Positions 17,017 through 53,856 of a DNA stretch of 64,000 nt are shown here, piece after piece. The position numbers were made by a program, and so were the translations under genes. This DNA is from Spelaeicoccus albus (GTDB taxonomy: Bacteria; Actinomycetota; Actinomycetes; Actinomycetales; Brevibacteriaceae), in assembly GCF_013409065.1 (NCBI RefSeq), contig NZ_JACBZP010000001.1, forward strand, positions 372,001 through 436,000. The letters run 5' to 3'. The notes below the pieces were generated by a model that was not told the origin of the DNA, searched no databases, and saw only the letters and a list, made by a program, of their open reading frames with translations. The stretch's first letter is position 1. Each line of letters opens with the position of its first letter.

Positions 17017-17607
17017 TCACTTCCGCTTTTGCGGATGGAGAGTCTCGCCCCGGGCGAGCATCTCGACGAACTGCCCGATTTTGCGCCGCCGGGTCTCTTG
17101 CCGCTTGACGGTTCCCAACCGATAGATCAGTGCGTACCTGTTTTGCGACGTGAGCGAGTCGAACGTCGATTGCGCGTCCGGATTGTCCGCTATCGCTTCG
17201 GCTAAATCAGCGGGCACTTCGGCGGACGCCGGGCCGGCGTACGCTTTCTGCCACCGCCCGTCGTCTTGCGCGGCCCGAACCGCGGCGAGACCGGCCGGTG
17301 CCATTTTGCCGGCGTCCGTGAGCCGCTGGACGTAACGAACGTTGCGCTCCGACCAGGCACTGCGTGCCGTTCGTGGCGTGAATCGTTGAATGAAGCTGCC
17401 GGCGTCCCGCGAGCGCACGCGACCGTCGATCCAGCCAAAGCACAGTGCCTCGTCGAGTGCGGCCGGATAATCCAACTCGGTCTCGGTGCCGCCCTTCTTC
17501 GACAAGACGAGCCACAGCGCCGCTTCCGAGTCATGGTGCCCGGTCAGCCATTCTCGCCAGGCGGCCGCATCCGGAAATACCATTGCCTGCTCGGGGTCGT
17601 CGCTCAT
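17017..17607 (-). CDS. YdeI/OmpD-associated-like protein
   Basis: 196 residues from the ATG at 17607; an ATG at 17625 is also possible. Signatures of the YdeI-like family are present: WREWLTGHHDSEAALWLVLSKKG, then ALDEALCFGWIDGRVRSRD and FIQRFTPRTARSAWSERN. The C-terminus is basic (KRQETRRRKIGQFVEMLARG). Members are cytoplasmic and have been linked to bacteriocin or antimicrobial-peptide tolerance, but the mechanism is unclear. Convergent with the AEC gene. Confidence 0.86.
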   Translation of the reverse strand: MSDDPEQAMVFPDAAAWREWLTGHHDSEAALWLVLSKKGGTETELDYPAALDEALCFGWIDGRVRSRDAGSFIQRFTPRTARSAWSERNVRYVQRLTDAGKMAPAGLAAVRAAQDDGRWQKAYAGPASAEVPADLAEAIADNPDAQSTFDSLTSQNRYALIYRLGTVKRQETRRRKIGQFVEMLARGETLHPQKRK

Positions 17608-17653
17608 ATCCACAGGGTGCCACATGGCGCCTCATCAATTGCCGTAATCGCCA

Positions 17654-17680
17654 TTTAAAACGAGTACTATGCGTTTTAAA
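17654..17680. promoter_or_regulatory. Perfect 9-bp inverted repeat, candidate operator of the SufR-like regulator
   Basis: TTTAAAACG (17654-17662) and its exact complement CGTTTTAAA (17672-17680) flank a 9-nt spacer. The repeat is AT-rich in a GC-rich region and ends 15 nt before the preferred GTG start of the regulator gene, so it would overlap the core promoter. It may also affect the divergent YdeI-like gene. Autoregulation is inferred. Confidence 0.65.
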
Positions 17681-17695
17681 CGATACGATGGTCAC

Positions 17696-18427
17696 GTGGC
17701 ACCGCAACGAACCGACACACCGACCGGACGCACCCGGACGCATGCCGCCCTGGGCTCCGAACGGCGGTTGACGCTGCTCGATTTGCTGCGCGAATCCGGC
17801 GAGGCCATGGACGCCGCGACCCTGGCCAAGGCGACCGATTTGCACGTGACGACCGTCCGGTTCCATCTCGACGCGCTCACCGATGCCGGCCTGATCGAAG
17901 CCACCCGTGAACGCGCCGCCCGTCGCGGCCGTCCGCGTCTGCTCTTTTCAGCGACCAGCAAGACCGAGGACGACGATTCCGCCGGCTACGCGCGCCTGGC
18001 CAAGGTGCTGGCCAGCCATTGGGGCGACGACGCTCCCTCCCCCGCCGCCCGGGCCGAAAACGCGGGCCGCGATTGGGCGGCCGCGCAACATCTGACGCCA
18101 TCCGGCGACTCGGATCTGCGCACCGCCGCCGAGCGCGTGTCGACAACGTTCAACGAGCTTGGATTCGAAGCCGAAGCCGAAGATCACGGCTCCGAACAGC
18201 GCATCATTTTGCACCACTGCCCGTTCGCGGCAGTCGCCCGCGAACACCCGGAGGTCGCCTGCGCCGTCCACCTGGGTTTGCTGCGCGGCGTCCTCGACAG
18301 TCTTGACGCACCGCCGTCCGAAACGTCGCTGGTCCCGTTTGTCGCGCCCAACTTGTGCATAGCGCACGTGCGAGCCGGTAACCCGAGCGCTGCACCCGCA
18401 ACCCGTCCGACCTCAGGAGAAGACTAG
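17696..18427 (+). CDS. SufR-like helix-turn-helix regulator with conserved cysteines
   Basis: About 243 residues. An ATG at 17669 is in frame but lies inside the inverted repeat, so the GTG at 17696 is preferred. A winged helix (LDLLRESGEAMDAATLAK, TTVRFHLDALTDAGLIE) takes up the first third. The C-terminal domain has HHCPF, EVACAVHLGLL and PNLC, three cysteines spaced C-x13-C and about 30 residues, close to the Fe-S-binding pattern of SufR-type repressors. It is followed directly by a haemoglobin and a DUF488 gene, which suggests a redox or nitric-oxide-responsive operon. Cluster binding is inferred. Confidence 0.8.
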   Translation: MAPQRTDTPTGRTRTHAALGSERRLTLLDLLRESGEAMDAATLAKATDLHVTTVRFHLDALTDAGLIEATRERAARRGRPRLLFSATSKTEDDDSAGYARLAKVLASHWGDDAPSPAARAENAGRDWAAAQHLTPSGDSDLRTAAERVSTTFNELGFEAEAEDHGSEQRIILHHCPFAAVAREHPEVACAVHLGLLRGVLDSLDAPPSETSLVPFVAPNLCIAHVRAGNPSAAPATRPTSGED

Positions 18428-18847
18428 ATGCCCGAATTGCCCGATTTGAAAAGCCGTGCGGATGTCGCGCGCATGGTGCGGTCGTTTTACGAAACGGCGA
18501 TGGCCGATCCGATGCTGAAGGGCATCTTCGAGCGTCATCTCGACCTTGACGAGCACATGCCGATCATGACCGATTTCTGGGAGACCGTCCTATTTCGAGC
18601 GGGCAAGTATCGGCGCAACGCGCTGCAGGTGCATTTCGACATCCACGTGGTCGACCCGCTCGAATGGCCGCATTTCGAACGCTGGCTGGAAATCTGGAAG
18701 GCCAACGTCGATTCGCTTTACGCGGGTGAGCACGCCGAGCGGGCCAAACTGCAGGCCACCCGGATCGGGGCATCGATCCATCGGCGTCTGCACGGACGCA
18801 ATCCCAGCCAATTCGAAACCGTAGGAACCAGGGAGGAAACGACGTGA
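18428..18847 (+). CDS. Group III truncated haemoglobin
   Basis: 139 residues starting immediately after the regulator stop, with AGGAGA upstream. The sequence FYETAMADPMLKGIF, then FWETVLFRAGKYRRNALQVH and HFERWLEIWKANVDSLYAGE, is diagnostic of group III truncated globins, including the heme-proximal helix with HF near residue 76. Such proteins bind oxygen and NO in the cytoplasm and are associated with nitrosative or microaerobic stress. The stop overlaps the next start (GTGA). Confidence 0.88.
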   Translation: MPELPDLKSRADVARMVRSFYETAMADPMLKGIFERHLDLDEHMPIMTDFWETVLFRAGKYRRNALQVHFDIHVVDPLEWPHFERWLEIWKANVDSLYAGEHAERAKLQATRIGASIHRRLHGRNPSQFETVGTREETT

Positions 18848-25753: not shown

Positions 25754-25829
25754 GGCTCTGTAGCTCAGTTGGTAGAGCGTTCGACTGAAAATCGAAAGGT
25801 CACCGGATCGACGCCGGTCGGAGCCACCA
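25754..25829 (+). tRNA. tRNA-Phe (GAA)
   Basis: Acceptor GGCTCTG/CGGAGCC, anticodon stem TTCGA/TCGAA with loop CTGAAAA (anticodon GAA), discriminator A and an encoded CCA. It is the last chromosomal gene before the accessory region, so it is the best candidate attachment site for the element to its right. Confidence 0.96.
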
Positions 25830-27431: not shown

Positions 27432-28583
27432 TCAAATCAGCCCGTCGAGCTGTTTCTGCATTACCGCACCGGCTCTCGTGTCGCCCTTGAGGGTGTTCAT
27501 GTAGACGTCCTGTGTCATCGACGGGTTCTTGTGCCCGAGGAACGCCGCGATCTCGGTCGCCGACATCCCGGCCCGATCGAGCATCGTCGCGGCGGTCTTG
27601 CGAAAGGTGTGGGTCGAGAGTTCCGGATAGCCCAGTGCGTCGCGAACGTCGCGGAGCTCCCGCTGAGTGTTCGACGGATCGCGCAGAGTCATGACGGTCG
27701 TGGGGAAAAGCAGCGTCGTGAATTCCTTGAGGCGATCATGCCGCCGTTGCAGTAGATCCATGGTCGGCTCCGGCAGCGGTGTAACGCGCCAGCCCGCGTC
27801 AGTCTTCGGTACTGTTTGCCGAATGATTCCGCGACCTTTCACGCGGACGTTCGTAGCCTCCACTTCGGCGGTGCTCGCCTGGAAGTCGATCGACGAAACA
27901 TCGAGAGCGCAGGCCTCCCCGACTCGCCACCCCGCCGCGACCATGAACTCGAGAAGCTCGACCGTGTCTTGCTCGATGAGGCTGGGGGCCGATCGGAGCT
28001 TGCCCATGAGGTCGGCGAGGTCTTCGGGAGCGATAGCGGAAGCCCCCTTCTTCCCCTTGGATTGGGCGATGCGCTCGACGTCACGTACTGGGTTTCGGGA
28101 GATGGCTCCGTTACTCACCGCCAGCGACATCATGCCGCTTAAGGTAGACCGGCAATTCTTCGCCGCGCCGTGACCCGACTCCCTGTGCACCGCGTTGAGG
28201 AATTTCTGCAGACGGTCCGGTTTGGCTTCCGCCACGGAAAGATCACCGATCCGCGGCGTGATGTGCGCGGTGACCGCGTAGCCATAGGTCTCGAGACTGC
28301 CTTCTGAGAGTTGTAGGTCGCGCTTGTGGGCGAGGAAAAGTTGCCCGAGCACGTGTAGCGGCGTCGTGGGCTTGAGCTCGCCGCCGCGGCCGGTCTCGAT
28401 GGTGGTCAGCGCCCGTTTCAAGGCGGATTCCGACTTCGGTTTGCTCGCACCGAACCTCTCGACCTGTCTGGTTTTGCCGTCGGCAAACCTGTACCGCGTG
28501 CGTGCCCGCCATTTGCCGGGCCGTACTTCGACCGAATTGATCGTTCCGTATGTTCCGATGCTCATTCTGGGCCGAACCATCAC
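27432..28583 (-). CDS. int: Tyrosine recombinase (element integrase)
   Basis: Up to 383 residues; a GTG and the following ATG are both possible starts, with AAGGAGG upstream favouring the ATG at 28580. The arm-binding N-terminus is basic (GKWRARTRYRFADGKTRQVERFG). Catalytic boxes are complete: Arg in AAGWRVGEACAL, HTFRK (HxxR), GHKNPS and the nucleophile Tyr in TQDVYMN. It should carry out integration and excision at the tRNA-Phe site. Its start overlaps the stop of the upstream XRE gene, so both are cotranscribed. Confidence 0.95.
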   Translation of the reverse strand: MMVRPRMSIGTYGTINSVEVRPGKWRARTRYRFADGKTRQVERFGASKPKSESALKRALTTIETGRGGELKPTTPLHVLGQLFLAHKRDLQLSEGSLETYGYAVTAHITPRIGDLSVAEAKPDRLQKFLNAVHRESGHGAAKNCRSTLSGMMSLAVSNGAISRNPVRDVERIAQSKGKKGASAIAPEDLADLMGKLRSAPSLIEQDTVELLEFMVAAGWRVGEACALDVSSIDFQASTAEVEATNVRVKGRGIIRQTVPKTDAGWRVTPLPEPTMDLLQRRHDRLKEFTTLLFPTTVMTLRDPSNTQRELRDVRDALGYPELSTHTFRKTAATMLDRAGMSATEIAAFLGHKNPSMTQDVYMNTLKGDTRAGAVMQKQLDGLI

Positions 28584-30548: not shown

Positions 30549-33398
30549 TCAGGAAGAGTCGTCGCCCAAATCGACCGGTCGCCGCCATAGTCCTGGGAGC
30601 ACGTTTTGGCGAAGAATTGCCATGAGACGCGGTGAGCCCGCCGCAACGTGACACAATGCCTCACCGAGGATGATCACGTTGTCGGGCTCATCGAGAAAAG
30701 CCACAAGATCGCCCAGCTGTTGGTCACGAAATCCGCCTGCCGCCTGAACGTCCTGAATCAGACCATCCATCGTGTGCATTGCGTTCTCGGTGTCAGGCTC
30801 CGCGTACTCGTGCAGAGTGTCCGAGAACGCCGCCCAGTTCGCCACGGGCTCGGCTGGGAGCGTCTTCGAGGCGTCACGACGTACGCTGGCGAGTCCGAGC
30901 ACAGCCGTGCACGCGCCCGTCGCGCGACCGATGTCGGTGATAGCTCCCTGTATGGCCTCGGCGTTCTCGCGCGATGTGGCCGGCCCGCCGAGTGCGTCAC
31001 GCAGTCCGTCAGCAACGAACCCGCGCACGGCGTCAGACGTGGCCGCTGCCGACATGAGCATTCGGGTGTAGCCGGTCAGCTCGAACCCGGCAGGCTCATT
31101 GAGCGCACTCATCGCATGGGCCACCAGGTGCCGCAGGAACTTCGGTACCGCGATCATTCCGTCGTCGATAATGTCAGCGGCTACGTTTGGGCCTACTGGG
31201 AACATCGATCCGAACCGCTCCGGCGCATCCTCATCGAGCGTGAGCACAAGATCGGTGATCGCCCGCTGCTGGTAGGGCTGCGGCTCCGTGAACAACCGGC
31301 CGGCGGCGAAGAGGAATGTGTTGCGCCAATGAGGCGAAGGAGCGATGCGGCGCAGCCTCGGGATAGTCTCCTCGAGCGGTCCGGTCGTCAGAGCAAAGGC
31401 AGCCATCAACTCCTGAAGAGATCGCACATCGAAGCCGAACCCTCCGCCGGGGCGTGGGGTGAGCAGCACCAGACGATGCGTAGCTGTCTTCACGATCCGT
31501 TCAAGCAGCTCCTGATCACGGGTCTCAGGCTCATACTCGGCCTCCGCAAGCACCTTCCACGCTTCATTCCGCAGTTCGAGCGGAGACAGGACCGCGTCAG
31601 TTCCAGTGGCAGTCTCAGCCTCCTTCTGGAGCAGCAGTCCGACACGCCGATGCAGTTCGAGCACTTCAAGTGCATGCTCGCGCAGCAGCCTGGAAAGACT
31701 CGAGTTCTTGTTCTGTTCACGCTTCGCGATCGTGCTGTAGTACCCCCAGAACAGCTCGTACCTACTGGGCGCGAACTGCTTGGCAGACTCGGCGATGATA
31801 GACATGATCAGCGTCTGCAACGGTGTTCGGAGCAGGTGCTTGGTTCGGTCATCTTGTGCCGCCTGCTGGAGCTGCGACATGATTCGGTCCTGTCGAGCTT
31901 CGTCGTCGGGCAGCCGCAGCTTGGTGACGAGCTGCCCGTAGCGGAGCGCGTCGTTAACAGCGAGATCAGTGAGATCGATGCGCTCGAAGGCCTCGGAGGG
32001 CAGCTCGTCCTGATAGCCGGTCGGGCGAGTGGTGACCATGATGAGCATGTCGCACCTCTCGGACTCGGCCTCGGCTGCGAACGTCTCGAGGTTGGCGATC
32101 AGCGCCTTGCGTACGGACGGTTCACTGACTTCGTCGAGGCCGTCCAGCACGATGAACGAAGGCCAGTGTTTTAGCCACTCCCAAAGTTCCCAGCGCGGGA
32201 TGTCCTTGGACGCGGTCTTCCCGGTCAGGGTGGTCGCAATCCAGTGCAGTAGTGAGTAGCTATCGGCTGTGCCCTGCTCAATCGCAAACCTGGCGAGGTC
32301 GATGTTCATCGGCCATCGCCGGTTCTTCGGCACGCGAACGCCCATGGCGACAAGCGCGTCCGTGGTGCTCGCCACCGTCTTCAACTGGTCGTCGCCGATT
32401 TCGAGGTCTTCGCCGAGGAACACGGCTCGGTACGCGTGAGTCAGAAATTTGGAGACAGTCGACTTGCCGTTGCCGGGAGCACCCGTGAGTACGAGGTGCC
32501 GCGGCTTCGCAACCGTAGTGAGTCCCGGCTTGAGAACTCGCTCCCCGCGTTCTAGCGCAAAAGCAATCACGTGGTCGCTCGTTTGCCGGTTGCCCACCAG
32601 AACTGGTAGGTCAATAGCAACGTCCTCGACCGGCACGCCGTGACCTTCGTAACCCGCTTCGTCGAAATAGACACGTCGTTCGCCCACCAACATCGACCGA
32701 GCGTGCTTCTCGAGCGCCGTTCCCAGCTCCGCCTGGTTAACGTTCGTGGAGAGCATTGACAGATCCGCGAGCACGTCTCCGGCGGTCAGGAAGCCGTTGA
32801 ACGCACGGCGCACTCCGTCGTGAGCGTTGAGAAGACCGACGATCTGATTGCCGTCCCACAGACGCCATTTACGTAGCCTTTTCATTCGGTCGCGTCGAGC
32901 GCGTCGCCGCTTCCGCGCTTCTTCGCGTGCCGACTTCGGGACGTCGTCCTCAGCAAGTTCGTTATTCAGCTGATCGAGGTACCGCTGGATGTTGGTATTG
33001 ATGGTGTCGAACCCGCCACTGCCCGGAACTGGCGTGAGCGGAATGTTGGTAGCGAACACGAGATAGTGCGGTACGTCGCCTCGCGTCGAGTCGGGGTCAC
33101 CCCACTCGTCCAACTCGGTTTTGATGCTCTGCCAGAACGAGGAAGCATCCTTCTGCGTACCCTCTAGCGTCTCCTTGTGCTTGACTTGGAAGATCGTCGT
33201 GCCATCCCAGGTCTCCGCTTTCGGGTGGCGCTCATCGGCGGACCACACGATGACCCCGTCGCTGACCAACATGTCGCGGCCACCGTCCCTGCCACGCCCC
33301 ATCGGACGGATTTGGGGGCCGAGCACCTTGATTGCCAGCGCGGCTACGACGTCTTGGAAGCCTACGCCGCCGAGACGCTGCAGGTCGTCATTCTCCAT
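30549..33398 (-). CDS. NLR-like NACHT NTPase with N-terminal Mrr-type nuclease domain
   Basis: 949 residues from the ATG at 33398, which has AAAGGGA upstream; a GTG-type extension to 33452 is less likely. The first 110 residues form a PD-(D/E)XK restriction-like domain: GVGFQDVVAALA, GRGRDGGRD (Asp 38 and 42) and FQVKHK (Gln 71, Lys 73). The STAND/NACHT ATPase follows: Walker A GAPGNGKST near 305 and Walker B FIVLDGLDEV near 415. The remaining 450 residues are helical and probably sense the trigger. This layout matches bacterial NLR/Avs-type antiphage proteins, in which an ATPase activates a nuclease that destroys DNA. The exact clade and trigger are not determinable here. Confidence 0.88.
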   Translation of the reverse strand: MENDDLQRLGGVGFQDVVAALAIKVLGPQIRPMGRGRDGGRDMLVSDGVIVWSADERHPKAETWDGTTIFQVKHKETLEGTQKDASSFWQSIKTELDEWGDPDSTRGDVPHYLVFATNIPLTPVPGSGGFDTINTNIQRYLDQLNNELAEDDVPKSAREEARKRRRARRDRMKRLRKWRLWDGNQIVGLLNAHDGVRRAFNGFLTAGDVLADLSMLSTNVNQAELGTALEKHARSMLVGERRVYFDEAGYEGHGVPVEDVAIDLPVLVGNRQTSDHVIAFALERGERVLKPGLTTVAKPRHLVLTGAPGNGKSTVSKFLTHAYRAVFLGEDLEIGDDQLKTVASTTDALVAMGVRVPKNRRWPMNIDLARFAIEQGTADSYSLLHWIATTLTGKTASKDIPRWELWEWLKHWPSFIVLDGLDEVSEPSVRKALIANLETFAAEAESERCDMLIMVTTRPTGYQDELPSEAFERIDLTDLAVNDALRYGQLVTKLRLPDDEARQDRIMSQLQQAAQDDRTKHLLRTPLQTLIMSIIAESAKQFAPSRYELFWGYYSTIAKREQNKNSSLSRLLREHALEVLELHRRVGLLLQKEAETATGTDAVLSPLELRNEAWKVLAEAEYEPETRDQELLERIVKTATHRLVLLTPRPGGGFGFDVRSLQELMAAFALTTGPLEETIPRLRRIAPSPHWRNTFLFAAGRLFTEPQPYQQRAITDLVLTLDEDAPERFGSMFPVGPNVAADIIDDGMIAVPKFLRHLVAHAMSALNEPAGFELTGYTRMLMSAAATSDAVRGFVADGLRDALGGPATSRENAEAIQGAITDIGRATGACTAVLGLASVRRDASKTLPAEPVANWAAFSDTLHEYAEPDTENAMHTMDGLIQDVQAAGGFRDQQLGDLVAFLDEPDNVIILGEALCHVAAGSPRLMAILRQNVLPGLWRRPVDLGDDSS

Positions 33399-34319
33399 CG
33401 CATCCCTTTGATTCGCGCGTACGAAACATCTGATTCGAGCCACGAGAGACACGGCCCTTGAGGTACGGCAGTGCTCCAGAGGATCGTCTCGATCATCCTA
33501 GTGGCCGACGACCACCAATGGGTCGGTGCCGCACCGGCTCACGCCGCAGCAGGACTTTTCTATGACCTGATGAGATCCAGTATCAGACACGAGCTTGGAT
33601 CAGACCGCAAGCCTCAGAGGTTTGAGAGACGACAGACCAGGAAACTGGTTCTACGGCTGATAACCAGAAGGCCGGCAAGCTCGGGCCGGCGGCCATCACC
33701 GTCGGCCTTAGCCAAGAGGCGAAGCCTGCACCGGGGTCGGCCGCCACTCATGCATGGCGGAGAGCGGGAGAGCAGGCGGAGAGCACCGATTTGGCGGTGC
33801 TCTCCCACCAAAAGACTGTCTGACCTGGGGAAACACCGGACGGGAGAGCGGGAGAGTAAGAAACATACTCTCTACGTGTGACCGTGTGTGCGCGTTCCAA
33901 TCGTTCGCATAGCTGCGCACACGCACACATGCTGCCGTAGCGGCGGACGCCATCCTGCTCTCCCGCTCTCCGGGTCGACTAAATCCGACTCTGACCTGGG
34001 GAAACACACGGAGAGCAGGCGGAGCGCACCGCTCGGCGCGTGCTCTCCCGCTCTCCGGTTCCGGTCGCAGAAGTCCGGTGTGCCCTACTTCTTAGTCCGG
34101 GCGATCCAGCCTGTTGCCCTGGATGCCTGCAGGGCCAGCGCGAACTCTTAGCTCCGATCATCAGCTCGCATTGACACGGAGCACGCAGGGTCGCTGCGAC
34201 CCGTCACGGTAGAGACCGTGACGGCGGCGTTATACCCAAACTGGGTCACTGGAGGCGCATGACCCCGGGATTCGCGTCGAACGGCACCGCTCGTTGGCCC
34301 GGCACACTGTCCCGAAAGC
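33399..34319. other. Long gene-free, repeat-rich leader of the NACHT gene
   Basis: About 920 nt between two minus-strand genes without a convincing gene; an open frame at 33471-33881 has no ribosome site or protein-like composition. It holds the direct and inverted repeats listed below and should also contain the promoter of the NACHT gene. Such a long leader is unusual for a single defence gene. Confidence 0.6.
33760..34055. repeat. Interleaved direct and inverted repeats upstream of the NACHT gene
   Basis: GAGAGCAGGCGGAG-[A/C]-GCACCG occurs at 33768-33788 and 34011-34031 (20 of 21 identical). CTGACCTGGGGAAACAC occurs at 33820-33836 and 33991-34007. GAGAGCGGGAGAGCA near 33760-33774 is the complement of TGCTCTCCCGCTCTC at 33956-33970 and 34041-34055. 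GAGCACCG/CGGTGCTC forms an 8-bp hairpin at 33781-33802. The same order of units appears twice, as if a 100-nt structured block had been duplicated. Confidence 0.8.
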
Positions 34320-34724
34320 TCAGATCTCGACATCGGGCAGCTCGACACCGCGGGCAGACGCCTCTCGCTCACCCTCCAGAACCCTGACCGACAGCTCCAA
34401 CTGCCTGACATCGTCGCGGGCCTGTTGGAGTCGCGCATGAGCTTTGAGGAGAGCGGCCCGTTTAATCTCGAGGTGCCGGTCAATAGTTGATGTATCGGTG
34501 AGTAACGTCATCAGCTCAACATCAAGCAACTGCGCGATGGCCACGGCCTCGTCAATCTTGACCGTCCGCTTGCCCTTCTCGATTCTCGTCATCGCACTGG
34601 GGTCGATCGTGTCGTCGAGCATGCCGGAGAGCCGCCGCGCGAACTCAATCTGACTCAGGCCGGCCCGCTCCCGTTCTTCGCGTAGACGACTAGCGAAGAT
34701 GATCCCGGCTGTACTGTGCGACAT
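34320..34724 (-). CDS. XRE family regulator with C-terminal coiled coil
   Basis: 134 residues. The HTH is classical (ASRLREERERAGLSQIEFARRLSG, then DPSAMTRIEKGKRTV). Residues from about 80 on form an Arg/Glu/Leu heptad pattern (LKAHARLQQARDDVRQLELSVRVLE) suited to dimerisation. It is divergent from the replication module at 34974 and upstream of the NACHT gene on the same strand, so it may control either. Confidence 0.87.
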   Translation of the reverse strand: MSHSTAGIIFASRLREERERAGLSQIEFARRLSGMLDDTIDPSAMTRIEKGKRTVKIDEAVAIAQLLDVELMTLLTDTSTIDRHLEIKRAALLKAHARLQQARDDVRQLELSVRVLEGEREASARGVELPDVEI

Positions 34725-34973: not shown

Positions 34974-35291
34974 ATGGCAACCGCACCGGCGCTCGAGCGC
35001 CTCTACGCACTCCGACAGCTGCACGACGCAGGTTACGGCGATCGGGTCACTCTCACCAAACGCATTCGCGAGGGAGTGCTGCCTGCGGTCAAGGTCGGCA
35101 ATGCCTTCAAAATTCGCGAACGCGATCTCCACCTGATCGGCGCAAGCATCAACATGCCCGAAGACGATTCACGCGTGGCCCCGACCGATGAACTCGGTGA
35201 CCTCGTGAAGAACGTCGTCGATGCCTTCCCGCAGCTCTCCGCCGACCAGAAGTGCCAACTCGGCCGACTTCTCACCTCTGCCGCTGCCTAA
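34974..35291 (+). CDS. Excisionase-like small DNA-binding protein
   Basis: 105 residues. YALRQLHDAGYGDRVTLTKRIREGVLPAVKVGNAFKIRERDL resembles the HTH and wing of MerR/excisionase-type proteins (choice of a value, then a basic wing). The C-terminal half is acidic and helical. It precedes the primase gene by 76 nt, so it may regulate or initiate replication of the element. The ribosome site is GAGGGG. Confidence 0.72.
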   Translation: MATAPALERLYALRQLHDAGYGDRVTLTKRIREGVLPAVKVGNAFKIRERDLHLIGASINMPEDDSRVAPTDELGDLVKNVVDAFPQLSADQKCQLGRLLTSAAA

Positions 35292-35301
35292 ATACGAAAC
35301 G

Positions 35302-35325
35302 CCCCGGCTGACGGGCCAGGGCGCT
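35302..35325 (+). terminator. Weak hairpin between excisionase-like and primase genes
   Basis: CGCCC and GGGCG enclose a GC-rich 14-nt segment with further pairing possible, followed by CTTCTACTTCTT. It may attenuate transcription into the primase gene rather than stop it. Confidence 0.4.
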
Positions 35326-35367
35326 TCTACTTCTTCAACCAGGACGGTATTGAAAGTCGAGTCCATT

Positions 35368-37968
35368 ATGACAGAGATCGCTGAGGATTGCACAGGCGTC
35401 GATAGCGCCTCGGATGATCTGGATAGCCCACTTACTAGTTATCAGAACCTGGCCCCGGAGCACGCGAAGGAGCTTTTCGGCAGCTCGGTTCCAGCGTCCG
35501 TGGCCGCTGAACAACGCGTCCACACGGCGCATACCCGCGGCGAGCTTCCAGCTTGGGCGCAATGGATCGCCGAGTTCGACAGCGCGCTTCCGGCGCTCGT
35601 GTACCCAATGGTTCACCCCGACGGATCCGAGACCGGGCAGGTCAAGCCCGCTCCGGGCACCGTGACCTCTTCCGAGGGCCGGCCCCTCAAGTACGTGTCG
35701 CCCGGCCACGACGACGGCCCACCCAAGCTGCCTGTATTGCGTACTGTCAAGAGCCCTGAAGTCGTCCTCATCGTCGAGGGCGTCAAGCAGGCACTGGCCG
35801 CGCTGTCCTGGGCACCCGAGACCTGGTCGATCTACCGGATCGCCGGCATCTGGTCGTGGCGGGTCGCCGGTGACGGCGAGGACGTCCCCGGTACACCGAC
35901 GCCGCATCTGACGGCCGTCCAAGGCCAGAACGTTGTGATCGTGCCCGACGCCGATGCGAAGTCCAACGTCCGCGTCTTCGACGGGGCCGTCGCACTCGGT
36001 GAGGCATGCCGAGGCTACGGGGCAGCCAGCGTGAAGTTCGCCCGGCTGCCCGGTGCGGGCAAAGACGGTCTGGACGACCTGCTCGTTCGCCTGGCCGACG
36101 ACGATGCCCGTCGCGAACTGCTGAAGTCCTGGGTGACTACCGCGAAGTCCCGTCCCGCGGATCTGAATCAGCGACAGCGGGAGCGGCTCCGAGCCAAGGT
36201 CGCCGCCAAAGATGCGCAGAAGGCTGCAAAAGCCGCTGTATCCGGTGACGCATTTGACGGCCGTGTCGGCATCGATCTGGACGGGGACCCACGGCAAGTA
36301 TCGCTCCACCTTCTGTCGACGCTCGTCGAGAACCGCGGTGGCGGGTCCATCTTCCAGCTCAATCGCAAGCTGGTGCGACTGCGGCGCGGCGACGACGGCG
36401 CGCTGCGGGCAGACGAGTTGGACCCCTCGGGACTTCATCGCGAGCTGCTCGACGTCACGTGCCCGTTCAGAATGATGAAGACCGGTGTTCAGCCCATGCA
36501 ACTCCTGGGCCCGACGCTCGGCCTCGTGGCCGACCATTGGAACGAACTTCCGCGCCTGACGGGAGTGACTCGTTCGCCGGTCGTTCGCTCTGATGGCACC
36601 ATCAACACCACTGACGGCTATGACGCCGAGACGGGGCTGTATCTGGACCTGTCGTCGGACATACGGGGCATTGAAGTTCCTGAGCACCCCACTGACGCCG
36701 ACGTTGCAGCAGCCAGGACGATGATCCGCGACGACCTGTTCGCTATGGATGGAGCCGGTGGCTACGACGGCTGGGTCTTTCGGGATGTGGCCGATCAGAC
36801 GAACGCCGTCGCTGGGATGCTAACTCCGCTGATCCGATCTCAGGTGACCTGCGTTCCTCTACTGCTGTTTGACGGGATCCAGCCGGGAGTCGGCAAGGGC
36901 GGCCTGCTCGAGATGACTCATCAGGTCCCTTTCGGGACCCCGGCGTCGGTCCAGCCCGCGCCACGGTCGGACGAGGAGATGGACAAGCGCATCGTCGCCC
37001 AACTCTCGGAGAGTTCGACCTCAGTTTGTCTGGACGAGGTGCAGGACGAGGACGACACGTGTCGGCTGAAATCGGCATCATTGCGGGCCGCTCTGACGTC
37101 GGCAATCTACCGCGGGCGTGAGCTCGCGAAGACGAAGATGCTCAACCTGCCGAACATGGCGTCCTGGTACGCGCTCGGCAACAACGTCCAGATCCCAGCC
37201 GACATGGCGCGTCGCGTCGTCCCCGTCAGGCTGGACTCGGACAGGCCAAATCTGGAAAACCGCGACAGCTTCCGCCACGACTTGGTCACGTGGGTGCCTG
37301 AGCATCGCACGGAGCTGCTGCAGGCATGTCTGGTGCTTGTCCGCGCGTGGTACGACCGCGACCAGCCGATCGCACCCAAATCGTTCGGCTTCGCCTCGTT
37401 CGGTGAGTGGCAGCGCATTGTCGGCGGCATTCTGCACCTCGCCGGATTCGAAGGCTTCTTGGCCAACGTCATGGAGGTTCGCGAGGCCGCCGACAGCGAG
37501 GGCGTGGACAACCGGGAGTGCTGGGCGTGGGCCGAGTCGCTGGTCCCGGTAGGAACGCGCTGGGGCGCGGGTGAGGTGTACGCGCAGGGCAAGGCGGACC
37601 CGGATGCCCCACCACCGTACGGGACGTCGTGGAAGGAACTGGACGCGCGCAAGCTCTCGAGGTACTTCGGTCAGCACCCGCGGTGGTATGGCGATCTGCG
37701 CATCCGAGCGGACGGGAGGATGCACGGCGGGGCCAAGGCATTCGTCTTCGAACGTTTGCCGTCGGGAGTGTCTGCGGTCCCGACGTCGTCTTCTGCGTCA
37801 CCGCCGGCCCCTGGTCCGAGGCAGTCCGGACCGCGCCCTGCCGCCGGTACCGCACCGGGAGAGGTCATCGAGCTGACCGACCGCAGCGGGGTCAAACAGC
37901 GGGTTGCAAGGGCGATGCCGACCATGAACGGCAAGACCATCGCGGAGCTCGGAGGTGACGCATCATGA
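35368..37968 (+). CDS. Toprim primase/helicase-like replication protein
   Basis: 866 residues from the ATG at 35368; the open frame runs further up but overlaps the previous gene. A Toprim-like domain near residues 130-220 has VVLIVEGVKQALAAL and NVVIVPDADAKSN (DxD), then KDGLDDLL. An ATPase core near 500-560 has the P-loop GIQPGVGKGG, with Gly replacing the usual Thr/Ser, and the acidic VCLDEVQDEDD. This is the plan of plasmid and phage primase-helicases that prime and unwind element DNA. Its stop overlaps the polymerase start (ATGA). Confidence 0.84.
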   Translation: MTEIAEDCTGVDSASDDLDSPLTSYQNLAPEHAKELFGSSVPASVAAEQRVHTAHTRGELPAWAQWIAEFDSALPALVYPMVHPDGSETGQVKPAPGTVTSSEGRPLKYVSPGHDDGPPKLPVLRTVKSPEVVLIVEGVKQALAALSWAPETWSIYRIAGIWSWRVAGDGEDVPGTPTPHLTAVQGQNVVIVPDADAKSNVRVFDGAVALGEACRGYGAASVKFARLPGAGKDGLDDLLVRLADDDARRELLKSWVTTAKSRPADLNQRQRERLRAKVAAKDAQKAAKAAVSGDAFDGRVGIDLDGDPRQVSLHLLSTLVENRGGGSIFQLNRKLVRLRRGDDGALRADELDPSGLHRELLDVTCPFRMMKTGVQPMQLLGPTLGLVADHWNELPRLTGVTRSPVVRSDGTINTTDGYDAETGLYLDLSSDIRGIEVPEHPTDADVAAARTMIRDDLFAMDGAGGYDGWVFRDVADQTNAVAGMLTPLIRSQVTCVPLLLFDGIQPGVGKGGLLEMTHQVPFGTPASVQPAPRSDEEMDKRIVAQLSESSTSVCLDEVQDEDDTCRLKSASLRAALTSAIYRGRELAKTKMLNLPNMASWYALGNNVQIPADMARRVVPVRLDSDRPNLENRDSFRHDLVTWVPEHRTELLQACLVLVRAWYDRDQPIAPKSFGFASFGEWQRIVGGILHLAGFEGFLANVMEVREAADSEGVDNRECWAWAESLVPVGTRWGAGEVYAQGKADPDAPPPYGTSWKELDARKLSRYFGQHPRWYGDLRIRADGRMHGGAKAFVFERLPSGVSAVPTSSSASPPAPGPRQSGPRPAAGTAPGEVIELTDRSGVKQRVARAMPTMNGKTIAELGGDAS

Positions 37969-39821
37969 GCATCGTCTACGTCGACCTTGAGACCGCCGAC
38001 GCCGACCGGCTCTGGGACTACGGCACCGGGTTCGTCCGGATCGCCGGCTACGCCGTCGACAACCGGCCGGTGGAAAGCACGACCGACATCGCCGCAGTGA
38101 CCCGGACGATCGAGCAGGCCGACCTCGTGGTCGGGCACAACGTGCTCGGCTTCGACCTGCTGGCGCTGGAGCGTTACCACGATCTCGACCTTTCACGCCT
38201 GGTGCGCGAGGACCGTGTCGTGGACACGCTGCTCGCGGCTCGGCAGAACGACCCGCCGCTGTCAGGAAGCGCGGACGCGCGCCGGTATAACCTCGACGCG
38301 ATCGCCAAGCGCCTGGGTCTCGACGGGAAGATCACCGGTGCCGGGGGCACAGCACTGAAGGCGCTGGCGAAGAAGTTCGGTGGCTTCGACCGGATCCCCG
38401 CCGACCATCCCGATTACCTGCGGTACCTGATACAGGACGTCGAACTTGTTCGGGAGTTGTCCAAGCACCTTGCCGTCGATGACTACTTGTGGCGCGAGCA
38501 CCGGGTGATGTGGCGGCTGAATCACATCACCAAGCACGGCTTCCGTGTGGATGTCGATCTCGCGGAGCGCTTAATCGCCGAGCGCCAGACTCGTGTGCGG
38601 GCTCAGAAGAAGCAGCTACACGACGTCTACGGTCTGCCGCTGGACGGCAAGAAGCCGCACACGACGACTGATGGCAAGGTCGCGCTCGAGAAGGCTTTCA
38701 TCGATCTTGGCATTGAGCCGCCGCGTACACCGACGGGTGCACTGGCAACCGGAAAAGAGGTACTGATGGGACTCGAAGCCGGACACCCGGACAACACCGG
38801 TTTGGTGGAGCTGTGCCGCACGCTGAGGGCATTCAACGGCGAACGGTCGATGGCGCAGACCCTCATGGATCACGCCGGCAAAGATGGGCGCGTGCATCCC
38901 GGCGTGGATCCCCACCAAGCCACCGGGCGAATCAGCATCACCAATCCCGGGCTGTCCGTGATGGGCAAGCGCGACCGCGGCAACGTCTGCGAACGAGCGA
39001 TGCTCCTCCCCGACGTCGGGCACGTTCTGATCAGCGCGGACCTCTCGCAGATCGACGCGCGGGCGATGGCGATGCATTGTCAGGACGCGAACTACATCGC
39101 CGCGCTGGAGCCAGGCAAGGACATGCACGACGAGATGGCGGCGGCCGTGTTCGGCGAGAGCGGCTGGGACCGTAGCGCCGGTCACCACCCGCGTCGAGGC
39201 GATGCCAAGGCGATCACGCACGCCACGTCGTACGGCATGGGCGCGAGGGCGCTGGCTGACAACGCGGGGATCAGCCACGATGATGCCGAGCGGCAGCTTG
39301 CGGCTTTGGAGCTGAAGTTCCCGGGATTGACGGCGTTCAAGACCTGGGTACGCGACGACGCCCGTCGTCAGGTCATCGAGAACGCGTTCGGACGGCGGAT
39401 GCGGGTGCGACCAGGCAAAGAGTACACACAGGCACCAGCGCACATCGGCCAAGGCACGGCGCGCGACCTGATGATGGAGGGCGTCCTGCGGCTGCCAGAG
39501 TGGCTGCTGCCAGGCCTGCGCGCAATCGTCCACGACGAGCTCGTTCTGTCCGTGCCGGAGAGCCGGGCGGACGAGGCCGAAGCCGCCGTGCTTAAGGCGC
39601 TGCAGTTTGCGTACCGAACCGCGCCAGGGAAGACCCCGGTGCCGGTTCTGGCCGACAAATCTGATCGAGGACGTGACTGGGCCGACTGCTACCGGTCAGA
39701 GAAGAAGAACTGGCCCGAGGTCGCCCGTGACCACCGTGATCTACCGACGTGCGGCGACAGCGACTGCACATGGCATCTCGGCAACGAAGTTATCTCTGAG
39801 GAGAAGGAGAACGCAGCATGA
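37965..39821 (+). CDS. Family A DNA polymerase with 3'-5' exonuclease domain
   Basis: 618 residues. The exonuclease part keeps the DEDDy residues: VDLET (residues 6-10), VGHNVLGFDL near 60 and YLIQDVELV near 155. Polymerase motif A is ADLSQIDAR near 360, motif B includes DAKAITHATSYGMG near 415 and motif C is IVHDEL near 522. The 5'-nuclease domain of chromosomal PolA is missing. Length and layout resemble phage-type replicative PolA. ATGA coupling to the primase/helicase suggests a self-contained element replisome. Confidence 0.94.
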   Translation: MSIVYVDLETADADRLWDYGTGFVRIAGYAVDNRPVESTTDIAAVTRTIEQADLVVGHNVLGFDLLALERYHDLDLSRLVREDRVVDTLLAARQNDPPLSGSADARRYNLDAIAKRLGLDGKITGAGGTALKALAKKFGGFDRIPADHPDYLRYLIQDVELVRELSKHLAVDDYLWREHRVMWRLNHITKHGFRVDVDLAERLIAERQTRVRAQKKQLHDVYGLPLDGKKPHTTTDGKVALEKAFIDLGIEPPRTPTGALATGKEVLMGLEAGHPDNTGLVELCRTLRAFNGERSMAQTLMDHAGKDGRVHPGVDPHQATGRISITNPGLSVMGKRDRGNVCERAMLLPDVGHVLISADLSQIDARAMAMHCQDANYIAALEPGKDMHDEMAAAVFGESGWDRSAGHHPRRGDAKAITHATSYGMGARALADNAGISHDDAERQLAALELKFPGLTAFKTWVRDDARRQVIENAFGRRMRVRPGKEYTQAPAHIGQGTARDLMMEGVLRLPEWLLPGLRAIVHDELVLSVPESRADEAEAAVLKALQFAYRTAPGKTPVPVLADKSDRGRDWADCYRSEKKNWPEVARDHRDLPTCGDSDCTWHLGNEVISEEKENAA

Positions 39822-46482: not shown

Positions 46483-47943
46483 CTAGTTCAACAGGTCCGT
46501 CTCGCTGATGTCGGGCAGCCTGACGAACATGCCGGGCTGGCCGCCGATCAAGAGCCGACCCTCGCCCTTCTTGCGCGGTATCAGCTCGGACGCTGTCACG
46601 CGTTCGACTCGCTCGGTCGAGCGCGTCGTCCGGTCGTACTCATCGGTCGACGACGTCACGCGTTCGTCCTCGCCGGCGAACCACGAAGCCTGTTCGAGAA
46701 GATCCTTCTCCGGGGTCCCCGGCATGATGAGCACACTCGGGAAGGTAGTCAGCATCTCCTCGTAAGAGTCCTTGTAACGGCGCTTGAGCTGCGTCGTATT
46801 CTGCACAGCCGCAATCAGTCGCACGTTGTAGCCGCGGAGCACGGAGATATGGGCGGGCAGTTTGGGCAGCGGCGCGCACTGGGCCAGCTCGTCCAGGAAG
46901 AGGCCAAGGGTCGGCAGCTTGCGGCCCACATTCCTCCGCCACCACTGGATCGACTGCTCGATCACGGCGCAGGCCGCCGAAGCCGTGCTCCCGTCGATGG
47001 GTGAGGTGACGTAGAGCGTGGCCCCGGGCTGTTCGAGCATGGAGGGGTGGAACGCCTCGGCGTCGCGGTCACCGGCCACCGCGTCCAACGACCACGCCTT
47101 CAGCGCGTTGCGCATGTTGATCGCCACCGAGTCGCGTTGCTTGTCAACCATGTTCATCACGGCTCGCAGGGACTCCGCGTGACGAGACTCGAGCAGCGCG
47201 CTGGCGCGCAGGTAGGCATTCGACCAGTTCGGGGTGACGAAATCACTCTCGGTGGGGTCGTCAACAGCCTGGCCGTCCCTGTCCAACCTCGGCGGATGTT
47301 CGAGCGCCTCGACGACCCAATTGACCCCGCCGCCATCGACCATCTCACCGGTGTCCGGGTGCGGCAGTGCGCCGCCCGCCCGGATGAACGCAGCCAGGGG
47401 CCTGGCAGCCAGGTTCTCCCACGTCGGGTCGGAGTTGCCTGAGTCGCCGCCACTGGCAGACCCCACCTTCGCTGTGGCCTGGAGCAGATCGCTCATTGCC
47501 ATCGACTCGTCGTCGGTGTTGACGAGCTTGCAGGGATCGGAGACGACGCGAGTGACCTCGACCCCCTTCAGGTCGGACTCCATGACCTCCTCGGACAGGT
47601 CCATGAGATAAACCGGCCCACGCTGCGCGCGCTTCTTGATCGTCACGTCGACGAGGTCGCCCTTCGTCGACATGGCGATCACCGGCTGATGCGCCCACAT
47701 CACGATGTTCTGGCAGATGACGCGACGGCCCTTACCTCGGCCGGTCAGTCCGCTGAGCAGCATGTGCGGCCCCGTCAGCGCGAACTCACCCGCTTTGCGC
47801 CCGGCATTGATCTCCTCACTGAGTGGGTCCTCGTCCTCGATCAGGAGGCCCGCATAGGGCATCTCGGGCACGTCGATCGGCACGGGCCGCGGTTGGGACT
47901 CGTCGGCATTGCCCTTGATCTTGCTCCTGTTGATCGGTTTCAT
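46483..47943 (-). CDS. VirD4/TraG-like conjugative coupling ATPase, no membrane anchor
   Basis: 486 residues from the ATG at 47943, which has AAAGGGG upstream; the open frame continues upstream but overlaps the next gene. Walker A is GLTGRGKGRRVICQNIV, with Gly after Lys as in VirD4, followed by MSTKGDLVD. Walker B is LGLFLDELAQ near residue 355, and the RGYNVRLIAAVQNTTQLKRR segment is typical of TraG/TraD proteins. The N-terminal membrane helices that normally precede the ATPase are missing. It should couple the relaxosome to a secretion channel. Confidence 0.86.
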   Translation of the reverse strand: MKPINRSKIKGNADESQPRPVPIDVPEMPYAGLLIEDEDPLSEEINAGRKAGEFALTGPHMLLSGLTGRGKGRRVICQNIVMWAHQPVIAMSTKGDLVDVTIKKRAQRGPVYLMDLSEEVMESDLKGVEVTRVVSDPCKLVNTDDESMAMSDLLQATAKVGSASGGDSGNSDPTWENLAARPLAAFIRAGGALPHPDTGEMVDGGGVNWVVEALEHPPRLDRDGQAVDDPTESDFVTPNWSNAYLRASALLESRHAESLRAVMNMVDKQRDSVAINMRNALKAWSLDAVAGDRDAEAFHPSMLEQPGATLYVTSPIDGSTASAACAVIEQSIQWWRRNVGRKLPTLGLFLDELAQCAPLPKLPAHISVLRGYNVRLIAAVQNTTQLKRRYKDSYEEMLTTFPSVLIMPGTPEKDLLEQASWFAGEDERVTSSTDEYDRTTRSTERVERVTASELIPRKKGEGRLLIGGQPGMFVRLPDISETDLLN

Positions 47944-48032
47944 CAGGTATCCCCTTTTTCGTTTCGCACCCCGATCACGCGGGCTTGCGCGCTGCTTCCC
48001 GTCGAACTCGATTCTGCGTTCGCCTTCGACGG

Positions 48033-48296
48033 TTATATTCGATCGTCTGCCTCCTCGTTCGTCTCCTGCGGTGCCGACAGCTTCTTCGTGGGTCGGCCTG
48101 CACCCGGGCGCTGGCCGCCGTGGCCCGTGTCGGGCGCGGCGTCGGCGATCCGTGCCGCAATATCGTCGTCTTCGAGAGCGACGCGCACGGCACCGCGGAT
48201 CCATCCAGACCCGCTTAGGTATTTACCGGGACGGCGCGCCGACTTCACCAACGCCTCCAGCCGACGTGCGTCGTCGTCGGGAAGTCTGATCCTCAT
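48033..48296 (-). CDS. Small RHH-like DNA-binding protein
   Basis: 87 residues. The start MRIRLPDDDARRLEALVKSA fits a ribbon-helix-helix strand and helix, and the middle RPGKYLSGSGWIRGAVRVAL the second helix. Near the end, GGQRPGAGRPTKKL resembles an AT-hook core. It is 90 nt upstream of the coupling ATPase on the same strand, and repeats lie just in front of its own start. Likely a local repressor of both transfer operons. Confidence 0.76.
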   Translation of the reverse strand: MRIRLPDDDARRLEALVKSARRPGKYLSGSGWIRGAVRVALEDDDIAARIADAAPDTGHGGQRPGAGRPTKKLSAPQETNEEADDRI

Positions 48297-50358: not shown

Positions 50359-51014
50359 AAACCAGGAAGATCGCGTCCGGTCTGGCCGTGGCAGTGGTGA
50401 CGCTGACCGCGCTGACCGGCTGCGTCACCATCGAGACCGGGCCGAAGCCGTCGGACACGTCGGCACCGTCGAAGAGCGCGACCAGCACGCCGGCTCCGAC
50501 CAAGGACTCGCCCAAGCCCAGTGCCACGAGCAGCCCGAAGGATGCCGGCGACGACACAGGCAAGAAGGACGCAGACAAGAACGACAAGGCCAAGAAGGCA
50601 AAGGTCCACGCTCTGAACCTCGACGAAATCAAGGGCAAGCGCTACAGTCGCGCGAACGACTTCAAGGGGGTGTTTCAGCCGAGCCCGGTGATCGGGCCGT
50701 ATCTCGAGTCCTGGTTCGTCGACGGCAACGAGTTCCGGTACATCCACCAGAACTGTGCCGGCCAGGTCAAGCGCGACGTGAGCGGGACGATCAAGAACGG
50801 CAAGCTCGTCTGGACTGGCACCGACGATCATGTCGACCCGTGGATCGGCGATCTGGACACGCACACCACGCCGGTCACGATCACCGCCACCACGCTCGAT
50901 CCCGACCGGATCAGCGTCGAAGCGTCGACGACCCACATCGCCGACGAGAAGAAGGCCTTCGCCGGCTACTGCAAGAAGCGCGGCAAGCAGGTCGGCAAGG
51001 TTTTCGCGGACTGA
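50355..51014 (+). CDS. Lipoprotein of transfer operon
   Basis: 219 residues. The signal MKTRKIASGLAVAVVTLTAL ends in the lipobox LTGC. A 60-residue Ser/Thr/Pro/Lys/Asp linker then leads to a globular domain of about 130 residues (GKRYSRANDFKGVF onward) with NCAGQVKRDVSGTIKNG. It is anchored on the outer face of the membrane. As the last gene of a membrane operon beside the coupling protein it may act in mating or entry exclusion, but no sequence feature proves this. Confidence 0.78.
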   Translation: MKTRKIASGLAVAVVTLTALTGCVTIETGPKPSDTSAPSKSATSTPAPTKDSPKPSATSSPKDAGDDTGKKDADKNDKAKKAKVHALNLDEIKGKRYSRANDFKGVFQPSPVIGPYLESWFVDGNEFRYIHQNCAGQVKRDVSGTIKNGKLVWTGTDDHVDPWIGDLDTHTTPVTITATTLDPDRISVEASTTHIADEKKAFAGYCKKRGKQVGKVFAD

Positions 51015-51024
51015 GGGGAGCAAG

Positions 51025-51609
51025 GTGAAGTACGGGTATACGCGTACCTCGACCAAGGACAAGCAGGACGACGATCTGCAGCGCCGGGCGCTGATCGATG
51101 CCGGTGTCGCGGACCGCCAGATCTACGCCGACCAGGTGTCCGGGGCCAAGCACGCACGTGCCCGAGCAGGCTGGTCGGCACTCGACGAGCGGCTGCGGGG
51201 CGGTGACGAGCTCGTCGTGTGGCGGATCGACCGCATCGGCCGGTCGATGATCGACGTCATCACCACCGTGACCGAACTGCTCGACCGGGATGTGGCGGTT
51301 CGGTCGCTCACCGACGGTATCGACCCGTCGACCAGAGAAGGGCGACTGATGCTGAACCTGATGGCGACGTTCGCCGAGTACGAGCGCGAGTTGATCCAGG
51401 AGCGGGTGCAGGCCGGCGTCGACTCGGCGCGGGCACGAGGCGTAAAGTTCGGTCGCCCGGCACCGGACGCTGCGAAGGTAGCGAGGAACCTACGGACGGT
51501 GCAACACCTCATTGAAGCTGAAGGTCTGAGTGTCGTCGAAGCGGCGACGACGGTGGGATGGTCCAAAGCGACGTACTACCGACACCGGGCCAGCCAGGTG
51601 ACGTCATGA
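51025..51609 (+). CDS. Small serine recombinase (resolvase/invertase type)
   Basis: 194 residues from a GTG with GGGGAG upstream. The catalytic Ser is in YGYTRTSTKD near residue 8. The conserved core is present: DQVSGAKHARAGWSAL-like (DQVSGAKHARARAGW), DELVVWRIDRIGRSM with the catalytic arginines, EGRLMLNLMATFAEYERELI. A C-terminal HTH, SVVEAATTVGWSKATYYRHR, ends it. It may resolve dimers, invert DNA, or belong to a second element. Ten nt after the lipoprotein gene. Confidence 0.92.
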   Translation: MKYGYTRTSTKDKQDDDLQRRALIDAGVADRQIYADQVSGAKHARARAGWSALDERLRGGDELVVWRIDRIGRSMIDVITTVTELLDRDVAVRSLTDGIDPSTREGRLMLNLMATFAEYERELIQERVQAGVDSARARGVKFGRPAPDAAKVARNLRTVQHLIEAEGLSVVEAATTVGWSKATYYRHRASQVTS

Positions 51610-53516: not shown

Positions 53517-53856
53517 CACCGCGCTTTCAGCATTCGCGCTAGACCGCGAGCGTCTTGTGCCGTATCCGTGATGAGTGATCCCGGAGCGATCTGTCCTGCG
53601 GATGACAGTACTGTCTCTCGGGGCGCGAGGCATGCCAAGTTGATGACGGCACCGGTCTTAGAAACCCCAAAATAAGACGCCGACCGGCGAGACACACTTT
53701 CTGAGACAACTTAGCCGGTGATCACCCCCGTTCGGTTCTCGTCTCGCAAAGGTGATGTTCGTGAGACTCCACGTCGACGACAATCGAGTGGACCGAGATA
53801 AAAGAAGCCCCACCCGCCCGAATGCAGGTGGGGCTTCTTCGTACCCGACGGCGGAG
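53517..53856. other. Gene-free region upstream of the zinc-ribbon gene
   Basis: 340 nt with no convincing gene. It holds the promoter region of the minus-strand zinc-ribbon gene and, near its right end, the perfect hairpin described next. A long plus-strand frame starting at 53752 crosses the hairpin and is antisense to the next gene; I regard it as a shadow. Confidence 0.5.
53802..53839. terminator. Bidirectional-looking terminator before the zinc-ribbon leader
   Basis: A perfect 13-bp stem (AAGAAGCCCCACC with its complement) with a 12-nt loop. It lies 18 nt downstream of the stop of the minus-strand gene 53857-54342 and ends in runs of A or T on both sides. Confidence 0.88.

Follow-up and report, generated by a model that had tools for sequence, protein, structure and literature searches.

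A predicted nuclease-NACHT immune receptor encoded on an integrative element of Spelaeicoccus albus

Identification of a nuclease-NACHT protein

The window analyzed here, a stretch of 64,000 nucleotides from the Spelaeicoccus albus genome, encodes a protein that is in our assessment quite likely a single-protein bNACHT immune receptor armed with a DNase, which an integrative mobilizable element carries as cargo. By analogy with characterized receptors, its function is probably abortive-infection immunity, with the host cell most likely being killed or stalled upon entry of a virus or a competing element. A DNase-NACHT architecture is already known from bNACHT25, and the lineage described here is a scattered, unmodelled branch of known bacterial immunity. 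It adds an NLR-type receptor lineage, spread across three phyla, that is not covered by the PADLOC 2023 and NCBIfam models tested.

The nuclease-NACHT gene occupies positions 30549..33398 on the minus strand, as the initial annotation had proposed, and is an open frame of 949 amino acids from an ATG start; an alternative GTG start at 33452, 18 codons upstream, would yield 967 amino acids. It is intact and found as one copy in the 4.03-Mb genome. All motifs quoted in that annotation are present, and the key residues are invariant in an alignment of 11 sequences, including ten relatives that are 22-46% identical. Invariant positions are D38, Q71, K73 and E95, the NACHT residues G311-K312-T314, the Walker A glycines and D419-G420-D422-E423, further P526-L527-Q528 and R560-E561, as well as F656, R659, L661 and E663 of the winged helix. 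Judged by sequence comparison, motif conservation among relatives this divergent is far beyond chance. A decayed or spurious reading frame was thus rejected, given that the frame is uninterrupted, present once in the genome and conserved at its motif positions.

Used as a single sequence, the window protein barely passes the cut-off of the Pfam model NPHP3_N, scoring 27.4 against 24.8 bits, barely misses that of AAA_22, yields only weak partial matches to PADLOC and NCBIfam models and gives no match in a sequence search of the PDB. On its own it would escape calling by the Pfam, PADLOC and NCBIfam libraries, and none of the Pfam, NCBIfam and PADLOC 2023 models tested covers the lineage end to end. 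Membership in the PADLOC families PDC-S73, mad8 and Aga_REase was rejected, these being partial matches via the nuclease or P-loop only. The full-length structure was predicted using AlphaFold2 with an alignment of six sequences (mean pLDDT 72) and shows a NACHT fold; a nuclease fold was recovered when the N-terminal domain was modelled separately.

The N-terminal domain is a PD-(D/E)XK nuclease

Residues 1-205 (32784..33398, minus strand; model pLDDT 79) form a PD-(D/E)XK nuclease domain of the Mrr type, characterized by the motifs G36-x-D38-G-G-R-D42 and Q71-x-K73. The fold, first proposed from these signatures, is supported by the domain model and by structural matches. When the nuclease domain alone was used in VIA-align, the best match was the N-terminal domain of Avs4 (8dgf; Z 9.2, 155 residues), followed by AF1548, AspBHI, MspJI, Card1 and XisH. 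Most of the matches with a Z-score of at least 5 are annotated nucleases of the PD-(D/E)XK type. Foldseek alone returned no significant match for the domain, and a PDB sequence search with a nuclease profile returned nothing relevant. Asp42, which had been singled out for mutation together with Lys73, is part of a position that carries D or E across the family, however, the strictly invariant acid is D38. In an hhalign comparison with E. coli Mrr, D42 lies opposite D203, although this alignment is weak and non-significant (P 0.15).

A homologous N-terminal nuclease with the same DGGRD and QxK motifs is encoded in ABC-three-component systems of the CTD12 type found on Agrobacterium and Arthrobacter plasmids. 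There, the nuclease is instead fused to CTD12 and acts beside an ABC ATPase operon. One such homologue comes close to the Pfam Mrr_cat threshold (19.0 vs 21 bits). The domain looks like a widely shared defense nuclease module, and its presence in ABC-three-component systems makes effector swapping between unrelated defense platforms traceable.

Given the Mrr-type motifs, the structural similarity to AspBHI and MspJI, which are both modification-dependent, and the presence of conventional restriction-modification genes on the same element, the protein could be imagined as a modification-dependent (type IV) restriction enzyme like Mrr or McrBC, reading modified DNA and cutting it in an NTP-driven manner with neither protein sensing nor an oligomer switch. 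We consider this quite improbable. The window protein shares the PD-(D/E)XK core with its D and QxK residues with Mrr-type enzymes but lacks their N-terminal DNA-recognition (winged-helix) domain: Pfam detects none N-terminal to the nuclease, which itself starts at residue 5-6 or so, and no separate DNA-recognition domain was found. Further, its NTPase is a NACHT/NLR module and not McrB-like, and the fast-evolving C-terminal tail described below suits the recognition of varied ligands.

The central region is a NACHT module with an NLR-type layout

Residues 255-690 (31329..32636, minus strand) constitute the NACHT module, consisting of NBD, HD1 and winged helix. Its motifs are the Walker A sequence GAPGNGKST, the Walker B sequence FIVLDGLDE(V), TPLQ and FDVRSLQE, with the Walker B fitting the NACHT type hhhhD[GAS]hDE. 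VIA-align superposes residues 220-842 of the model on NLRC4 (4kxf) with a Z-score of 24.5 and an rmsd of 4.1 over 474 aligned residues, and the next matches of the whole model are NLRP3 and NOD2, the three spanning Z 22-24.5 over about 430-475 residues. Sequence identity to animal NLRs is 10-14%, however, based on the NLRC4 match, the NACHT assignment is secure at fold level. Independently, the family profile matches the helical-domain region of NLRC4 (E 0.013), and the Pfam NACHT model recognizes 9 out of 11 members with an E-value no higher than 0.1 (best 9e-6), while sister-group NACHT proteins pass its cut-off. The NACHT ATPase suspected from the Walker motifs alone has thus turned out to be a true NACHT module with HD1, winged helix and HD2.

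The window protein shares the NBD-HD1-WHD-HD2 layout with the animal NLRs NLRC4, NLRP3 and NOD2. It differs from them at both ends, with a nuclease in place of the N-terminal CARD or PYD and a short helical tail in place of leucine-rich repeats. In animal NLRs, a winged-helix histidine within the motif FxHxSxQE holds ADP. The family motif at the corresponding site reads F[DES][VI]R[STQ]LxE, so that, as far as the motif comparison goes, the resting-state contact may differ from that of animal NLRs.

A likeness to Avs proteins, also raised in the initial annotation, applies to one part of the protein. The nuclease resembles that of Avs4 (AVAST type 4), which provides its best structural match, but the ATPase module finds its best matches among animal NACHT proteins such as NLRC4, and the Avs4 chain in 8dgf is 1534 residues long compared with 949 here. 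PADLOC Avs models do not match the window protein at E 0.1. Avs chains are also absent among the best structural matches of the whole model, which is no evidence against kinship.

The C-terminal region contains a short, fast-evolving tail

The C-terminal half was initially described as a helical sensor of 450 residues. It is indeed helical in the AlphaFold2 model, with the tail being its least certain part, but for the most part it belongs to the NACHT module, being made up of HD1, winged helix and HD2. Roughly residues 480-690 are taken up by the first two of these, and HD2-like helices extend from 690 to 770-840, the exact borders being a reading of the predicted model. The NLR layout reaches about residue 840, which leaves roughly 110-180 residues of helical tail as the candidate sensor, and a sensor of 450 residues is not supported. 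All that follows the winged helix amounts to about 260 residues, compared with the long TPR sensor by which Avs proteins recognize terminase or portal. This region (residues 691-949; 30552..31328, minus strand) combines the HD2-like helices with a tail, at about 771-949, that the identity profile marks as fast-evolving. Over residues 481-690, the closest relatives are 46-55% identical and the distant ones 22-38%, whereas over residues 771-949 identity falls from 35% down to 11-16%. A relative of the window protein encoded in genome G019, which is 64% identical over the full length, is 49% identical in the last 89 residues and 62-68% identical elsewhere.

In distant relatives the last ~180 residues are replaced by ~570, and in long members position 690 is followed by about 650-660 residues, compared with 260 in the window protein. 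None of the NACHT-associated C-terminal Pfam models matched the family at E 0.1. A tentative reading, which we regard as possible rather than probable, is that the family represents an undescribed bNACHT clade with a compact core of nuclease, NACHT and HD2 and interchangeable C-terminal sensors. These sensors would be about 180 residues long in actinobacterial members and about 570 in those of P2-like prophages and other long members. If true, a single receptor scaffold would be redirected against various invaders, a reading that the E. coli P2 member makes testable.

Proposed mechanism and comparison with known bNACHT systems

bNACHT25 (WP_001702659.1) is a PD-(D/E)XK-NACHT protein that degrades DNA upon phage sensing, an activity abolished by the D48A substitution (PMC12169576). 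Together with bNACHT32 it belongs to bNACHT clade 6, for which NCH1 is reported (PMC12169576). Compared by description, not by sequence, both resemble the window protein in being single proteins with an N-terminal PD-(D/E)XK DNase, a central NACHT module and a helical C-terminus. They differ in that the window family has no NACHT-associated C-terminal Pfam match, although Pfam may hold no NCH1 model. The nearest E. coli family member, WP_096949132.1, carries a different accession than bNACHT25 and bNACHT32.

We hypothesize that at rest bound ADP would keep the NACHT module (NBD-HD1-WHD-HD2) in a closed state. The C-terminal helical tail would respond to a protein of the invader or to damage that the invader causes, upon which the NACHT module would exchange its nucleotide, open and oligomerize. 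The PD-(D/E)XK domains would thereby gather and could cut host DNA, invader DNA or both, stopping the infected cell before the invader spreads. Autoinhibition, oligomerization, DNA degradation and the abortive outcome are modelled on bNACHT25 (PMC12169576) and NLRs, while the nuclease fold with its active-site residues, the NACHT fold, the family conservation, the mobile setting and the defense-associated neighbors were computed here.

The gene is carried by an integrative element

The location of the gene on a mobile element, also proposed initially, is supported and the att sites are now defined. A pattern search located an exact 38-bp direct repeat, one copy of which (attL, 25792..25829, plus strand) lies in the 3' end of a tRNA-Phe gene (25754-25829). 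The second copy (attR) is found outside the window at G000:C1:442358-442395, where no tRNA is present. The element is 44.6 kb long and its right end lies 6.4 kb past the window. Near attL, a tyrosine integrase is encoded at 27432..28583 on the minus strand (PF00589, E 3e-19; PHROG integrase, 1e-52). Replication of the element is represented by a primase/helicase-like protein (35221-37968) and a family A DNA polymerase (37965-39821), both on the plus strand within 35221..39821 and identified through PHROG and Pfam matches. A VirD4/TraG-type coupling protein for mobilization is located at 46483..48204 on the minus strand (PF02534, E 2e-20; TraG-D_C, 2e-15) and a serine recombinase of the resolvase/invertase type at 50830-51609. 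Based on the replication genes, coupling protein and serine recombinase, the element reads as integrative mobilizable or conjugative. It also encodes a 665-amino-acid open frame (51636-53633) that matches neither Pfam nor PHROG models. Short direct repeats (GGAGAGCAGGCGGAG..., TCTGACCTGGGGAAACAC) occupy the gap upstream of the nuclease-NACHT gene (33767-34061) and could represent a replication or transfer origin of the element.

Upstream of the nuclease-NACHT gene, a repressor-like HTH gene is found at 34320-34724. Some STAND proteins, for example MalT, are transcription regulators, and the window protein might accordingly be a regulator of element excision or copy number that uses its nuclease domain for DNA binding only. 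This appears very improbable. The gene is not bound to one element type but occurs on unrelated plasmids, in prophages and on the window element, a distribution that fits cargo, and the nuclease active site is conserved across the whole family.

Defense neighborhood and relation to the P2 hotspot

Just past the window, the right end of the element harbors a restriction-modification cluster (L035:2710-6287, corresponding to G000:C1 about 436710-440287) encoding a NaeI-family endonuclease (E 8e-100), a C5 methylase (4e-50), Vsr (7e-19) and an HNH protein. It is apparently a complete type II restriction-modification cluster, so that, together with the nuclease-NACHT gene, the element carries at least two candidate defense systems. 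Relatives elsewhere, including those on plasmids, adjoin restriction-modification, Abi, RAMP/CRISPR-type, Lit or N6-methylase genes.

The enterobacterial-type members L031, L032 and E. coli H2 are located between a P2-like portal gene and replication gene A; in L015, the gene likewise lies beside a portal gene, the sequence ending within the family gene. The P2 locus between portal and replication genes is described as a hotspot of anti-phage systems in a study that also notes Mrr_cat-bearing STAND proteins of phage satellites (PMC9122126). Members in this hotspot are only 25% identical to the window protein. A defense context for the latter is supported by the restriction-modification genes on its element and by these distant relatives. 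The E. coli P2-prophage member WP_096949132.1 (L051:7001-10993), named 'NACHT domain-containing protein' in RefSeq, opens both trigger and nuclease to testing in E. coli.

As the family resides mostly on plasmids, prophages and the window element, its members may guard the element and not the host, keeping out plasmids that compete with it or elements related to it, while protection against phage would be secondary or absent. We judge this unlikely, as the P2 hotspot holding some members is known for anti-phage systems; moreover, the protein mechanism would be the same and differ only in its target.

Distribution and phylogeny of the family

Using tblastn, full-length relatives were identified on Rhodococcus and Arthrobacter plasmids, and relatives matching over residues 1 to ~770-800 in Streptomyces, Gordonia, other Rhodococcus, Variovorax, Priestia and Klebsiella. 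Whole-genome searches show the gene to be rare. Among 99 relatives, it was found in S. albus itself and in G019 only, the third match (G002) being a sister-group NACHT protein. Five matches were obtained among 396 Actinomycetota genomes, including S. albus and one sister-group match. A search of genome contigs with the single protein returned one relative. The 40-kb region around the G019 gene shows no synteny with the window element except for the gene itself. Searches of phage records returned nothing. In viral contigs, single-protein scans with three queries were likewise empty, whereas a scan based on the alignment detected three relatives and another one with a single protein added a fourth.

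Nineteen homologues from Actinomycetota, Pseudomonadota and Bacillota, many of them on plasmids, form one NACHT clade with support of 100/100. In the NACHT tree, which was rooted by midpoint only and did not include E. coli H2 or the L015 contig, an HNH-NACHT protein and a second group of Mrr-NACHT proteins fall outside this clade. In these actinobacterial proteins (L045, L046 and L047), a sister NACHT module is combined with an N-terminus of the HNH or Mrr-like type; they belong to a separate clade (100/100), with the effector exchanged in L045. The latter, located at L045:2380-5055 on the Arthrobacter plasmid pAL1, has an HNH domain substituting for the Mrr-type nuclease.

The Rhodococcus plasmid pUSK13_2 apparently carries two inverted copies of the family gene (L003:7992-10856 and 17395-18808), with an inverted repeat of neighboring genes between them. 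On the S. albus chromosome, a segment at G000:C1:1397528-1397800 (L039), within a 361-amino-acid open frame, matches NA-iREase1 (PF22722) above cut-off with 35.5 bits, a family which, going by its name, we take to be a NACHT-associated inactive nuclease.
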